Assembly (NCBI RefSeq): GCF_009741735.1
Contig: NZ_WHOH01000003.1
Coordinates: 806,001-870,000, forward strand
Source: Lentibacillus sp. JNUCC-1
GTDB lineage: Bacteria; Bacillota; Bacilli; Bacillales; Amphibacillaceae
Length of the DNA: 64,000 nt
Direction: 5' to 3'
Positions 21,741 to 57,709 of this stretch are shown in pieces (position 1 is the stretch's first letter; the number at the start of each line of letters is the position of its first letter). The position numbers were made by a program, and so were the translations under genes. The notes below the pieces were generated by a model that was given only the letters and a program-made list of their open reading frames with translations, was not told the DNA's origin and ran no database searches.

Positions 21741-22284
21741 GACACAAACTGCGAACTAATGAAAACTTGAATAACTGCTTCTGGCAACCGCTCGGGGAAA
21801 ACACTCCGCGTCCAGTGGGCGCTGCTGAGCCTCCTCGGTCTATCGACCTCCGGGGTCTCACCGAGGCTTTTCCTCCCACAGGAGTCTCCGTGTTTTCCCC
21901 GAGCTTGGAGAGGTGTGTTTACCTTCTTTCTTGATTTTATAAAGTGAGGGATTGAAAGTTAAATGGACTGAGCATCAATCTGAAATCACCTCAAAGTTGA
22001 GTTAGCATTAGCTGCTCAAGAAAAGTTTACGTTCACTCTTAATTTCTTGAGCAAAACATCCAAGCACCTAATTAACATGAAGTGATTGGAGCGGAGGGAA
22101 GTCGACTCCTGCGGGAACAGCACGAGTCCGAAGACCCCACAGCGAGCGGTCTTTGCGAGCGAGGAGGCTGAGGCCGTGCCCGCGGAAAGCGACTTCCCGC
22201 AGCGGAAATCACGGTGCTCGTTTAAACATATGGAGTGCTTGGTGGCAGTCATTAGATCTGTCTAGTTAGTTCGCAGTTTACTTA
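21741..22284. repeat. 544-bp GC-rich composite repeat with 14-bp terminal inverted repeats (copy 1, intact)
   Basis: Bounded by AAACTGCGAACTAA (21746-21759) and its exact complement (22266-22279). Inside are two palindromic modules. Module A has perfect 15-bp arms GCTCGGGGAAAACAC (21790-21804) and the complement (21890-21904). Module B has GGGAAGTCG (22096-22104) and CGACTTCCC (22190-22198). No coding capacity is evident. A second inverted copy lies at 54690-56900. The layout is MITE-like; no transposase is present. It lies between motS and the terminator that probably belongs to it. Confidence 0.85.
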
Positions 22285-54632: not shown

Positions 54633-54961
54633 CTCGACGAAAATTAGTGGTTAAATGAAAATGAAATAGATAAAAAATAAAGACAAATTTAAGTAAACTG
54701 CGAACTAATTAGACCACTTTAGTTTTATGAGAGGGTCGCGATTTGCGCTGCGGGAAGTCGCTTTAACTTTATCACAGCTCAAGTGCGACATCTGTTCAAG
54801 AAAAACACTTTCACAGTGTCTTCTAGCCGCGGGCACGGCCTCAGCCTCCTTGCCCCGGCAAGGGGTATGTCGACGTTGCCCGCAAAGGGCGGTTTTAGTC
54901 GACCCTCCCTAATGTAACGCCGTGGGGTCTTCGGACTCGTGCTGTTCCCGCAGTCAACCAT

Positions 54962-55175
54962 GTATCGCAAAAAACGCTATACACCACAAGGGGATGAAAA
55001 TAGATGTAGGGTGGCGATACTAGTGCTACGGCTGGATGAGGAAGGTCGATACTCCTTGGTGCCTTAGAGCCCTACCCGCAGTCTGACTCCTTCGACCACG
55101 GCGCATCACTTATTGTTGCTCCCTTTCGGGAAGCACTCATGGTAGATTAACCCTATTCTGGTTGTTGCGCCAGCC
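54962..55175 (+). ncRNA. Predicted IS110 bridge RNA
   Basis: Stems visible: GTATCGC (54962-54968) with GCGATAC (55014-55020); GGTCGA (55044-55049) with TCGACC (55092-55097), enclosing the presumed target-binding loop; GGCGCA (55100-55105) with TGCGCC (55166-55171), enclosing the presumed donor-binding loop. In the first loop CCCGCAG (55075-55081) equals the target left of and including the core, and GACTCCT (55085-55091) is the exact complement of AGGAGTC to its right. In the second, TCATGGTAG (55137-55145) equals the element's right end plus core, and TGGTTG (55159-55164) complements CAACCA of its left end. Exact ends are estimated. Confidence 0.7.
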
Positions 55176-55211
55176 TTAAAATATTTGATGCCGTAGAAAG
55201 GATGCTTTTCA

Positions 55212-56435
55212 ATGGATATACTCATTGAAAGAGCATGCGGTTTGGATGTCCACAAAGACAACATTACTGCATGCATTATCACACCAAAAGGAAAGGAGAT
55301 TGAAACATTTTCAACCAAAACTGTTTATCTGATCGGATTAGTGGATTGGATCAAGGAACACAAATGCACACATGTTGCGATGGAAAGCACGAGTGTCTAC
55401 TGGAAACCAATTGTTAATTTGTTAGAAGCAGAAGATATTGAATTCTTAGTAGTGAATGCGCAACATATTAAAGCTGTTCCAGGAAGAAAAACAGATGTCA
55501 AAGATGCTGAATGGATTGCTAAGCTTCTTCGTCATGGTTTACTAAAGGCTAGCTTCATTCCAGATCGGAAACAAAGGGAACTACGTGAACTTGTTCGGTA
55601 TCGTAGAAGCATCATCGAAGAACGTGCGAGACAACTCAATCGAATTCAGAAAGTCCTAGAAGGCGCTAACATCAAACTAGGTTCTGTTGTTTCTAACATT
55701 ACAGGCGTCTCTTCTCTAGATATGCTTCGGTCTATAGCTAATGGCGTTGAAGACCTTGATGTTTTAGCCAATTATGCAAGAGGCGTAATGAAACAGAAAA
55801 AAGAACAACTAAAACTTGCTCTACAAGGTTATATACAAGATCATCAGCGGTTCATGATAAAGACTATTATAGACCACTATGATTACCTTACTAAAACAAT
55901 AGATATGCTTGATGAAGAGATAGCTCAAAGAATGAGTGAATATCAGGAAGATATTGAGCGACTGGATTCAATCCCAGGAATAGCAACAAGAATGGCTGAA
56001 CAAATACTTGCAGAGCTTGGAACAAATATTAAAAAACAATTTCCTACTGCACCGCAAATGTGTTCATGGGCGGGGTTAGTTCCCGGTAATAATGAAAGTG
56101 CTGGGAAACGTAAATCATCTAGAACTAGGAATGGAAATAAATATTTGAAATCTGCATTAATTGAAGCAGCTCATTCACTTCGGGGTTCCAAGACCTATCT
56201 CGGAGCACTCTATCGTCGTACGGCTGCCCGTAAGGGTAGAAAACGAGCAGCAATTGTAGTTGCTCATGCCATTTTACGAATAGCCTACTATCTACTAACT
56301 CGTAAAGAGATGTATGTAGATTTAGGCGAAGATCACTTCGACAAGCAAAGAAAACAATCTATTGTTAACCATTCACTGCGCCGCCTAGAAAGTTTAGGAT
56401 ATACAGTTGATATTAAGGAACAAGAAGTATCTTAA
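55212..56435 (+). CDS. IS110-family transposase/recombinase
   Basis: 407 aa. The N-terminal RuvC-like DEDD domain has CGLDVHKD (D12), AMESTSVYWKP (E58) and GRKTDVKDAEW (D95, D98). A coiled-coil region (about 195-250) joins the C-terminal Tnp_IS116/IS110/IS902 domain, IPGIATRMAEQILAELG and CSWAGLVPGNNESAGKRKS; the serine near residue 296 is the expected nucleophile. Recombination in this family is directed by a bridge RNA. GAAAGGATG precedes the ATG. Intact, so the element may be active. Confidence 0.93.
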   Translation: MDILIERACGLDVHKDNITACIITPKGKEIETFSTKTVYLIGLVDWIKEHKCTHVAMESTSVYWKPIVNLLEAEDIEFLVVNAQHIKAVPGRKTDVKDAEWIAKLLRHGLLKASFIPDRKQRELRELVRYRRSIIEERARQLNRIQKVLEGANIKLGSVVSNITGVSSLDMLRSIANGVEDLDVLANYARGVMKQKKEQLKLALQGYIQDHQRFMIKTIIDHYDYLTKTIDMLDEEIAQRMSEYQEDIERLDSIPGIATRMAEQILAELGTNIKKQFPTAPQMCSWAGLVPGNNESAGKRKSSRTRNGNKYLKSALIEAAHSLRGSKTYLGALYRRTAARKGRKRAAIVVAHAILRIAYYLLTRKEMYVDLGEDHFDKQRKQSIVNHSLRRLESLGYTVDIKEQEVS

Positions 56436-56954
56436 CATCTTACTGATTCTATACCCATTAGACATTGGCGCTCTCCTACTTTTTTTTAAAAAAGAATGAG
56501 CTGCGTCTACTTTAGTATTGCCATTTTTAAGTATTATAGTATTTTAATTTTCATGGTAGGAGTCGACTTCCCTCCGCTCCAATCACTTAATGTTTTTCAG
56601 TGGCTTGGACGGTTCTGCCTGAAACCAAGTATGAATGATTTCAGTTTACAGGCTATTATCAATATCTATACGCAATTCAAACTTTCATCTGTTCTGCCCA
56701 CGAAAGCGGGAAGAAAGGTGAACACTTCTCACCCAGCTCGGGGAAAACACGGAGACTCCTGTGGGAGGAGAAGCCTCGGTGAGACCCCGGAGGTCGATAG
56801 ACCGAGGAGGCTCAGCAGCGCCCACTGGACGCGGAGTGTTTTCCCCGAGCGGTTGCCAGAAGCAGTCATTTCAAGTTTTCTTTGGTTCGCAGTTTGTGTC
56901 TATTGTTCGGTAATGTTATTTTTATGGAAAATGTTGATGATGGGGAGGGTTTTT

Positions 56955-57709
56955 GTGGGTCTTGTATTGAGTGGTCTGTTTTTTGTTTTAGGGCTTATTT
57001 TTGGATCTTTTTTTAATGTGGTTGGTTTGAGAGTGCCTGAGGGCCGATCTTTTGTGAATGGGCGTTCTGCGTGTCCGAATTGCAATAATACCCTGGGAGG
57101 GAAAGAGCTTATTCCTGTGGTATCTTATATATTCCAGCGCGGTAAATGTCGTCATTGCAAAACGAAAATCTCATTACTTTATCCGGTTGTTGAACTCGCC
57201 ACTGGCTTTTTATTTGCTTATAGTGCGTATATGATTGGTCTGCAGTTTGAATTGATCACAGCCTTGCTGTTGGTTTCTATGCTTATGATTATACTTGTGA
57301 GTGATCTGATTTATATGATCATTCCTAACAAGGTCCTGTTGTTCTTTTTTCCTCTGATGATCATAATGCGCATAGCGGTTCCGCTAGATCCATGGTGGTC
57401 TCCGATTGCTGGGGGATTGGTGGTGTCCTTCTACTCGCATTGATCATCCTCATTAGTAAAGGTGGTATGGGTGCAGGGGATATGAAATTATTTGGCATTC
57501 TGGGTATTGTGCTCGGGTTTAAAAAGATGCTCCTGGCATTTTTGCTATCAACAGTGGTTGGCGCAATTATCGGGGTTATTTTACTAATGACAGAAGTCAT
57601 TAAACGTCAGCAGCATGTGCCATTTGGACCGTATATTGTACTTGGAGCACTGATTACATACTTTTATGGTGATTTTTTGGCCGATTGGTATATCGACTTG
57701 TTATTTTAA
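56955..57709 (+). pseudogene. comC: Prepilin peptidase ComC, frameshifted as read
   Basis: GTG start at 56955 after GGGGAGGG. The N-terminal domain has the zinc pairs CPNC and CRHC around GGKELIPVVSYIFQRGK, then membrane helices with VSDLIYMIIPNK (catalytic Asp). The frame stops at 57443. The other frame gives GGVLLLALIILISKGGMGAGDMKLFG, with the second catalytic Asp, to 57709. One extra G in the G5 tract 57411-57415 restores AGGIGGVLLLAL and about 250 aa. It processes competence-pilus prepilins. Its promoter region now adjoins the repeat. Confidence 0.85.

Follow-up and report, generated by a model that had tools for sequence, protein, structure and literature searches.

The window analysed here is a stretch of 64,000 nucleotides from Lentibacillus sp. 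JNUCC-1 (G000:C3:806001-870000; host genome of 3.69 Mb in three contigs). It carries an insertion sequence (IS) of the IS110 family at 54954-56559. On sequence evidence, the reading holds that the 5′ leader of this element encodes a bridge-type RNA with guides for the genomic target and for the element's own right end. In the explanation that we favour, the target loop of this RNA would pair with the genomic target, right guide first and left guide second, the donor loop would pair with the right end, and the transposase would recombine a circular form of the element into CCCGC-AG-GAGTC at the AG core. Shorter relatives without a transposase gene, referred to below as miniatures, would be self-aiming non-autonomous elements moved in trans: the RNA of a miniature would pick the target and recognize the ends of that miniature, whereas the chemistry would fall to a transposase provided in trans. 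We consider this explanation as a whole to be probable. By analogy with IS621, ISEc11 and ISEc21 we infer transcription and expression of the RNA, its binding to the protein, circle formation and movement in trans.

The element, its ends and its target

The element, its gene, its flanks and one empty site are as follows.

54954..56559, + strand: IS110-family element with TCAACC as left end and CATGGT plus core AG as right end
54947..54953, + strand: left target CCCGC plus core AG (flank), predicted to pair with the left target guide
55212..56435, + strand: transposase of 407 amino acids (PF01548, PF02371, NF033542)
56552..56559, + strand: right end CATGGT plus core AG, reading CATGGTAG and ending at 56559
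56560..56564, + strand: right target GAGTC (flank)
22104..22115, − strand: unoccupied site CCCGCAGGAGTC in the same repeat

The first-pass annotation had derived these bounds, with ends TCAACC and CATGGT and AG at both junctions, by comparison with an intact repeat at 22081-22120. Both the comparison and the bounds stand. The empty repeat lies inside that stretch, and the ends are fixed by unoccupied sites and by six full and seven miniature copies that have the same ends at a similar site. AG stands ahead of the left end at 54952-54953 and again as the final two bases of the right end. As expected for the IS110 family, insertion is site-specific with a short core at both junctions, and the site is common to the 13 copies of this genome.

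The transposase has the two domains that define the family, a DEDD RuvC-like domain (DEDD_Tnp_IS110, PF01548, E 2.7e-39) and Transposase_20 (PF02371, E 8.2e-20). It scores 284 bits with the NCBI model of IS110 RNA-guided transposases, NF033542 (cut-off 140), and the solved structures that match it by sequence are IS621 (E 6.4e-17) and ISCro4. These domains, the covarying guides and the two-loop fold described below all agree with the annotation's proposal of an IS110 element with a bridge-type RNA in its leader.

There are 180 exact unoccupied CCCRCAGGAGTC sites in the genome (none for a reversed-pattern control), and occupied and unoccupied sites together number about 190. The unoccupied CCC[G/A]CAGGAGTC sites of the window are at 21875-21886 (+), 22104-22115 (−) and 56754-56765 (−). 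Among the genome matches listed, many unoccupied sites are paired in inverted orientation at a spacing of about 120 or 270 bp, and the repeat therefore has two facing target sites.

Target guides covary with the targets

Relatives of the element were drawn from the best 80 of 507 named loci, from 8 of 159 family genomes, from 52 of 397 order genomes (part of which contributed loci) and from three viral contigs, one of them close. Of 114 distinct leaders extracted, 97 have both junctions long enough for scoring, miniatures included. The score is the number of matched bases counted outward from the core, for a guide with its own target and with shuffled targets (64 distinct guide–target combinations, 10000 shuffles). 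Two registers were allowed for the segment on the 5′ side of the target loop, and any offset for the string GACTCCT.

55075..55081, + strand: left target guide CCCGCAG, covarying with the left target across relatives
55051..55056, + strand: right target guide ACTCCT, complement of AG-GAGT, covarying with the right target across relatives
55085..55091, + strand: GACTCCT, judged to be scaffold; TCTGACTCC is nearly invariant in A1, with no specificity outside GAGTC targets

The annotation's left target guide, CCCGCAG, is borne out by its covariation with left targets: the mean match is 7.70 against 4.66 for shuffled targets, a value reached in none of 10000 shuffles. The 5′-side segment follows the right target in the same manner (4.91 against 3.38; 0 of 10000). 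With a single entry per guide pair (n = 34), the left guide scores 7.81 against 4.07 and the 5′ right guide 5.15 against 3.22 (0 of 10000 each). Examples of right guides are CGAGACTCCT for AG-GAGTCTCG (L174), CTTACT for AG-TAAG (L171-L173), AAGCT for AG-CTT (L140 and L141) and TGTACT for AG-TACA (L176). The more distant loci L192-L198, whose proteins are 55-60% identical, have a left-guide match at the same place, as judged by eye. A left-guide match of three bases or fewer is found in L183, L139, L002 and the tandem copy L062; one of the elements with a short right-guide match discussed below, L105, has a second possible right end.

The annotation had placed the guides in the order of IS621, so that GACTCCT, on the 3′ side of the left guide, would serve as right target guide. 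This arrangement has some appeal. In the element of the window GACTCCT matches AG-GAGTC over 7 nt, one more than the 5′ candidate, and over all 64 combinations it exceeds the shuffles (3.90 against 3.44; 0 of 10000). However, the string hardly varies among relatives that have TTTAAG, TTGAA or TAAGA as right target. When GAGTC targets are excluded (n = 55), it falls to 3.35 against 3.37, and 7992 of 10000 shuffles are as high, whereas the 5′ segment keeps 4.45 against 3.71 and the left guide 7.91 against 5.34 (0 of 10000 each). The values for one entry per guide pair are similar: 4.03 against 3.44 for GACTCCT with GAGTC targets (n = 34; 1 of 10000), and 3.34 against 3.34 without them (n = 28). 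We regard the IS621 arrangement as very unlikely here and have rejected GACTCCT as the right target guide.

It is still less probable, to the point of being barely credible, that the protein picks the target and that guide–target matches mirror shared ancestry. Related elements do have related targets, and relatedness inflates shuffle tests. Yet elements with near-identical leaders and with proteins 79-81% identical to the query sit at different sites with changed guides (CCGTTAG, CCTATAG, CCTTTAG), and both target guides track non-homologous flanks. Moreover, experiments have demonstrated guide-directed targeting in IS621 (PMC11208160) as well as in ISEc11 and ISEc21 (PMC11187229).

The order predicted for the target loop of the present subgroup, with the right target guide 5′ and the left target guide 3′, is thus reversed relative to IS621, where the left target guide is 5′ and the right one 3′ (PMC11208160). 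The tested IS1111 elements likewise have the guide order reversed relative to IS110, and their non-coding region usually follows the gene (PMC11187229). As read from the sequences, the present subgroup combines an RNA upstream of the gene, as in IS110, with target guides in the IS1111 order. An IS110 member with the same guide order may already be in print.

A donor guide matches the right end

55138..55145, + strand: left donor guide, CATGGTAG, reading in the sense of the right end; position RE-3 against 55143 gives z 7.1
55159..55164, + strand: TGGTTG, proposed earlier as right donor guide; no specificity

Ninety-three loci were tabulated, and 86 of them have both a donor guide and a right end, the right ends being located by a general motif. 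The left donor guide, proposed by the annotation as a segment of the same sense as the right end plus core, is identical to the right end along 7 nt at 85 of these 86 loci. The four agreeing variants are ATGGTAG (68 loci), ATGGGAG (12), ATAGTAG (3) and AGGGTAG (2). Together with the two target guides, three guides are shown to covary with the DNA that they would read.

The other donor segment of the annotation, TGGTTG, is present as a string and its specificity is nil, with 9750 of 10000 shuffles scoring as high; we have dropped it as right donor guide. No donor-loop segment tracking the left end was found across relatives. The right donor guide of IS621 is discontinuous (PMC11208158), and a guide of that type may be present here but unseen, the search having been made by contiguous matching. 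Three guides of the IS621-type set of four are supported for the present element.

A conserved two-loop fold

55027..55176, + strand: modelled bridge-RNA region, matched by the covariance model R1 (G000:C3:861027-861176, E 2.7e-38, the same sequence being in the model)
55030..55175, + strand: closing stem, GGCT (55030-55033) with AGCC (55172-55175), 100% of cells paired in 23 relatives with hardly any variation
55044..55097, + strand: target-binding loop with stem GGTCGA (55044-55049) and TCGACC (55092-55097), helix 2
55100..55171, + strand: donor-binding loop with stem GGCGCA (55100-55105) and TGCGCC (55166-55171), helix 4

A structure was drawn by hand, with a closing stem, a target stem with an inner hairpin and a donor stem with an inner hairpin, and was tested on 23 RNAs. 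Both stems named by the annotation recur in these relatives, helix 2 with 87.7% and helix 4 with 100% of cells paired. The innermost pair of GGTCGA/TCGACC is open in 14 of the 23, and the donor stem of the element in the window has C-G at one pair where most relatives have U-A. Over the whole fold, 97.0% of cells are paired (95.4 when shuffled), and compensatory changes are in excess, with two-sided changes at five pairs (1.6 shuffled) and in eight cells (1.7 shuffled), values equalled in at most 1 of 500 shuffles. The paired cells drop to 29-42% when the fold is slid by 1-3 columns, a control that favours the fold since it was drawn from inspection of the same 23 sequences. RNAalifold recovered part of the two-loop structure. 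A conserved two-loop fold, the lack of which among relatives had been named as refuting, is supported in these 23 RNAs.

Copies and miniatures in the host genome

A DNA search of the host genome found six full copies (1604-1606 bp) and seven leader-only matches. The latter are complete miniatures, of 397 bp in six cases and 396 bp in one, with the same left end, a bridge-RNA leader 96-97% identical, the same right end and no transposase gene. They have six variable columns in an alignment of 401, and all show the same internal deletion. Both ends of an autonomous element, the lack of a transposase gene and the presence of several copies are features of miniature inverted-repeat transposable elements (MITEs), and they are found in these seven and in 16 miniatures elsewhere (see below).

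The annotation proposed a check of whether all other copies lie at CCCGC-AG-GAGTC. This is true of the right half, GAGTC in 13 of 13 copies; the left half is CCC[G/A]C in 12 of 13. It reads exactly CCCGCAG in 11 copies, CCCACAG in L013, where the change is a G-T wobble with the guide, and CCCGGAG in L002, which lies at CCCGG-AG-GAGTC. In no other copy of this genome does the left target differ from the guide by more than a wobble; in L002 either the site changed after insertion or the mismatch was tolerated. Insertion at unrelated sites with an unchanged leader, also named as refuting, was not seen, and relatives at other sites have changed leaders. The right flank of L010 beyond GAGTC and both flanks of L013 are unlike the usual repeat.

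The outer flanks of the 13 copies, 400-900 bp out, have no mutual similarity at E 1e-5, which shows that the copies are separate insertions. In another genome (G118), two full copies, L060 and L062, stand in direct tandem with one AG core between them, which is what insertion of a circle at the end of a resident copy would give; this arrangement is compatible with a circular intermediate.

Miniatures in other genomes

The covariance model R1 detects 13 RNAs in the host genome, 42 in 11 of 159 family genomes, and matches in 52 of 397 order genomes, for which up to seven candidates per genome were scored and weaker matches were left aside. Twenty order-level regions without a listed transposase were examined, and L264 among them is a full element; seven further order-level R1 matches of this kind, already among the loci, gave no intact miniature. 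The loci contain 150 distinct RNA matches: 116 full, 19 miniature (15 outside the host genome), nine without a transposase match or right end and six with a partial transposase. The L101 miniature fell in the full class of this count since a full element follows closely, and its addition gives 16 outside the host genome.

These 16 intact miniatures are 369-383 bp long and come from 11 genomes, with three each in G090 and G426, two in G362 and one each in G012, G063, G066, G306, G381, G384, G504 and Neobacillus soli, the last being possibly the same genome as another of those searched. A fourth candidate in G426 (L272) has the right end, and its left end is not resolved. No transposase match was found between the ends of the 16 miniatures. 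The longest open frame there is 76 amino acids where measured; L271, L273 and L274 were checked for a transposase match alone.

In 12 of the 16 miniatures, left guide and left target are identical along 7 nt (mean of 6.9 after shuffling; 0.07% of shuffles as high). The miniatures of G063 and G066 are examples: each lies at CCTTTAG and has the guide CCTTTAG, and the resident full elements found there have CCGTTAG or CAGTTAG. Likewise, in G381 the miniature lies at CATTTAG with the guide CATTTAG, and the resident guide is CAGTTAG. The miniature's right end, CATGGGAG, agrees with the donor guide of the same miniature along 8 nt in G063, G066, G381 and N. soli and along 7 nt in G090, and the resident full elements found in these five genomes have the donor guide CATGGTAG. 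It is possible that a more distant resident with a fitting guide aims these miniatures instead. In N. soli the miniature (L101:2072) lies close upstream of a full element (L101:2745); their donor guides are CATGGGAG and CATGGTAG, respectively, each equal to its own right end.

Three damaged bridge-RNA miniatures are present in G337 (L275, L276 and L282), one of them ending inside the donor loop. This genome has more distant transposases. The bridge RNA of L222/L075 (G054) has an unusual left guide, ATTGTAG, identical to its left flank; neither an intact transposase nor a right end was found for it.

Descent of the miniatures

A tree was built from 117 bridge RNAs with the guide columns kept. 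One of its branches separates the 14 distinct RNAs of miniatures outside the host genome from the RNAs of 89 full elements, with an ultrafast bootstrap support of 100 and an SH-aLRT support of 95. The miniature branch is shown to have no full-length member and spans families f1, f19, f22 and f29 and Neobacillus. An earlier tree placed three of the degenerate miniatures inside this branch, and the miniatures of the host genome off it, nearest to the full element of the same genome. Because of this separate placement, miniatures have at least two origins.

Against this background the miniatures may be mobile elements of a separate, long-lived class, consisting of nothing but a guide RNA and two ends, which would choose their own targets, retarget by mutation of the guide, borrow a recombinase and spread over several families of Bacillales as a lineage apart from the sampled full elements, within an IS110 subgroup with an upstream RNA and the IS1111 guide order. 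We lean towards this wider reading, with less assurance than for the mechanism itself. Its probability is lowered by two results: left-target mismatches in 4 of the 16 miniatures and, in 6 of the 10 genomes, the lack of a related transposase.

Both results belong to a series that speaks against the proposed mechanism. The four miniatures without an exact left-target match are L265 (one G-T wobble), L266, L271 and L274. No related transposase was found at E ≤ 1e-20 in six of the ten genomes with intact miniatures (G012, G306, G362, G384, G426 and G504); it is present at this threshold in G063, G066, G090 and G381. The miniatures of these six genomes would be either stranded or served by a more distant enzyme. 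The right guide matches two bases or fewer in seven of the 97 scored elements (L099, L105, L181, L145, L168, the L101 miniature and the tandem copy L060), and shuffling of targets leaves relatedness in place. With contiguous matching, neither the 5′ side of the donor loop (2.91 against 2.90 shuffled) nor its 3′ side (3.03 against 3.12) gave a right donor guide. The minimum-energy fold of single sequences is no better than that of shuffled sequences (z 0.17 for 152 nt and 0.92 for the whole leader). Finally, the full and miniature elements of the host genome have identical guides, and this genome therefore cannot tell whose RNA aims a miniature.

The miniatures might instead be dead deletion relics, full elements having inserted and then lost the gene, or a broken copy having spread by another route. 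Several damaged miniatures do exist, movement is predicted from sequence, and the six genomes without a related transposase fit this view. Nevertheless, independent later deletions would differ, whereas the seven miniatures of the host genome are near-identical, with one internal deletion and unrelated outer flanks, and the 16 others fall within a narrow size range and have their RNAs on one branch across several families. We therefore think this origin unlikely. That the host has co-opted the miniature RNA as a small RNA and preserves it for some function besides transposition appears highly improbable. This would agree with persistence without a related transposase and across several families, but the miniatures keep a donor guide matched to the right end, which a host role would not need, and copies in genomes that lack such a transposase also decay.

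Comparison with known systems

The element resembles IS621 in the two-loop RNA predicted for its non-coding end upstream of the gene, and also in having left guides of the same sense, an antisense right target guide, a two-base core and a homologous transposase (PMC11208160, PMC11208158). It differs in its core (AG here, CT in IS621), in the length of the protein (407 amino acids here, 328 in IS621), in the swapped target guides, in that a right donor guide was not found by contiguous matching and in the presence of miniatures with their own RNA. The target of IS621 lies in a dispersed repeat, as does the target here.

The position of the guides and fold, upstream of the transposase gene in the 5′ leader, is that of the bridge RNA in the IS110 group, but the guide order of that group (bottom-strand, then top-strand complement) is reversed here. 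Conversely, the IS1111-type order, with the top-strand complement 5′ of the bottom-strand complement, is shared with seekRNA elements such as ISEc11 (PMC11187229). The non-coding region of IS1111 elements is usually downstream, whereas guides, fold and donor guide are all upstream here, and their proteins, of 330-350 amino acids, are shorter (PMC11187229). Inspection by eye shows CCATG close to the left end and CATGG at the right one, and no subterminal inverted repeat of IS1111 length (about 7-17 bp).

The non-coding regions of ISEc11 and ISEc21 are reported to act in trans (PMC11187229). ISEc21, of the IS110 type, also has an upstream region and a guide RNA usable in trans, and an engineered mini-IS was moved by its transposase and RNA; its guide order is opposite, and the miniatures described here are natural and carry their own RNA (PMC11187229). 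ISPpu9, found in the REP sequences of Pseudomonas putida, is likewise an IS in a multi-copy extragenic repeat with an RNA encoded upstream of the gene. It is a different element in a different host, and the opening of the abstract mentions no miniatures (PMC8450116). MITEs and other non-autonomous IS derivatives are similarly short, with both ends, no transposase gene and expected movement in trans. The present miniatures differ from MITEs in being without long terminal inverted repeats and in having a guide RNA of their own, with which they could, on sequence evidence, aim themselves.

No description of a natural IS110 miniature with its own guide RNA was found in the literature searched; preprints and most subscription papers lay outside this search, and a prior description is possible. 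If the explanation is correct, a guide RNA and two ends suffice to define a mobile element, and guide–target pairs evolve without a protein gene. Natural parasitism of the bridge RNA separately from the recombinase, as MITEs do with transposase and ends, becomes directly testable, and the natural elements of 369-397 bp would be a compact scaffold for bridge recombination. The guide map of the present subgroup is corrected, and its swapped order indicates that RNA position and target-guide order are not coupled in the way that the two groups in print had implied.

Sequences adjoining the element

A scan with Rfam gave no match to a described bridge RNA family. The sole match, at 54852-54914 on the minus strand of the window, is to the Bacillaceae-1 RNA (RF01690); it adjoins the insertion and lies below the cut-off (32.6 bits, cut-off 35). 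The genome has 110 matches to this RNA at E ≤ 0.001, 25 of them under the cut-off, and the target repeat seems to travel with it.

On the other side of the insertion, two overlapping open frames at 56496-57709 of the window may represent a prepilin peptidase split over two frames. The first of them starts within the right end of the element.

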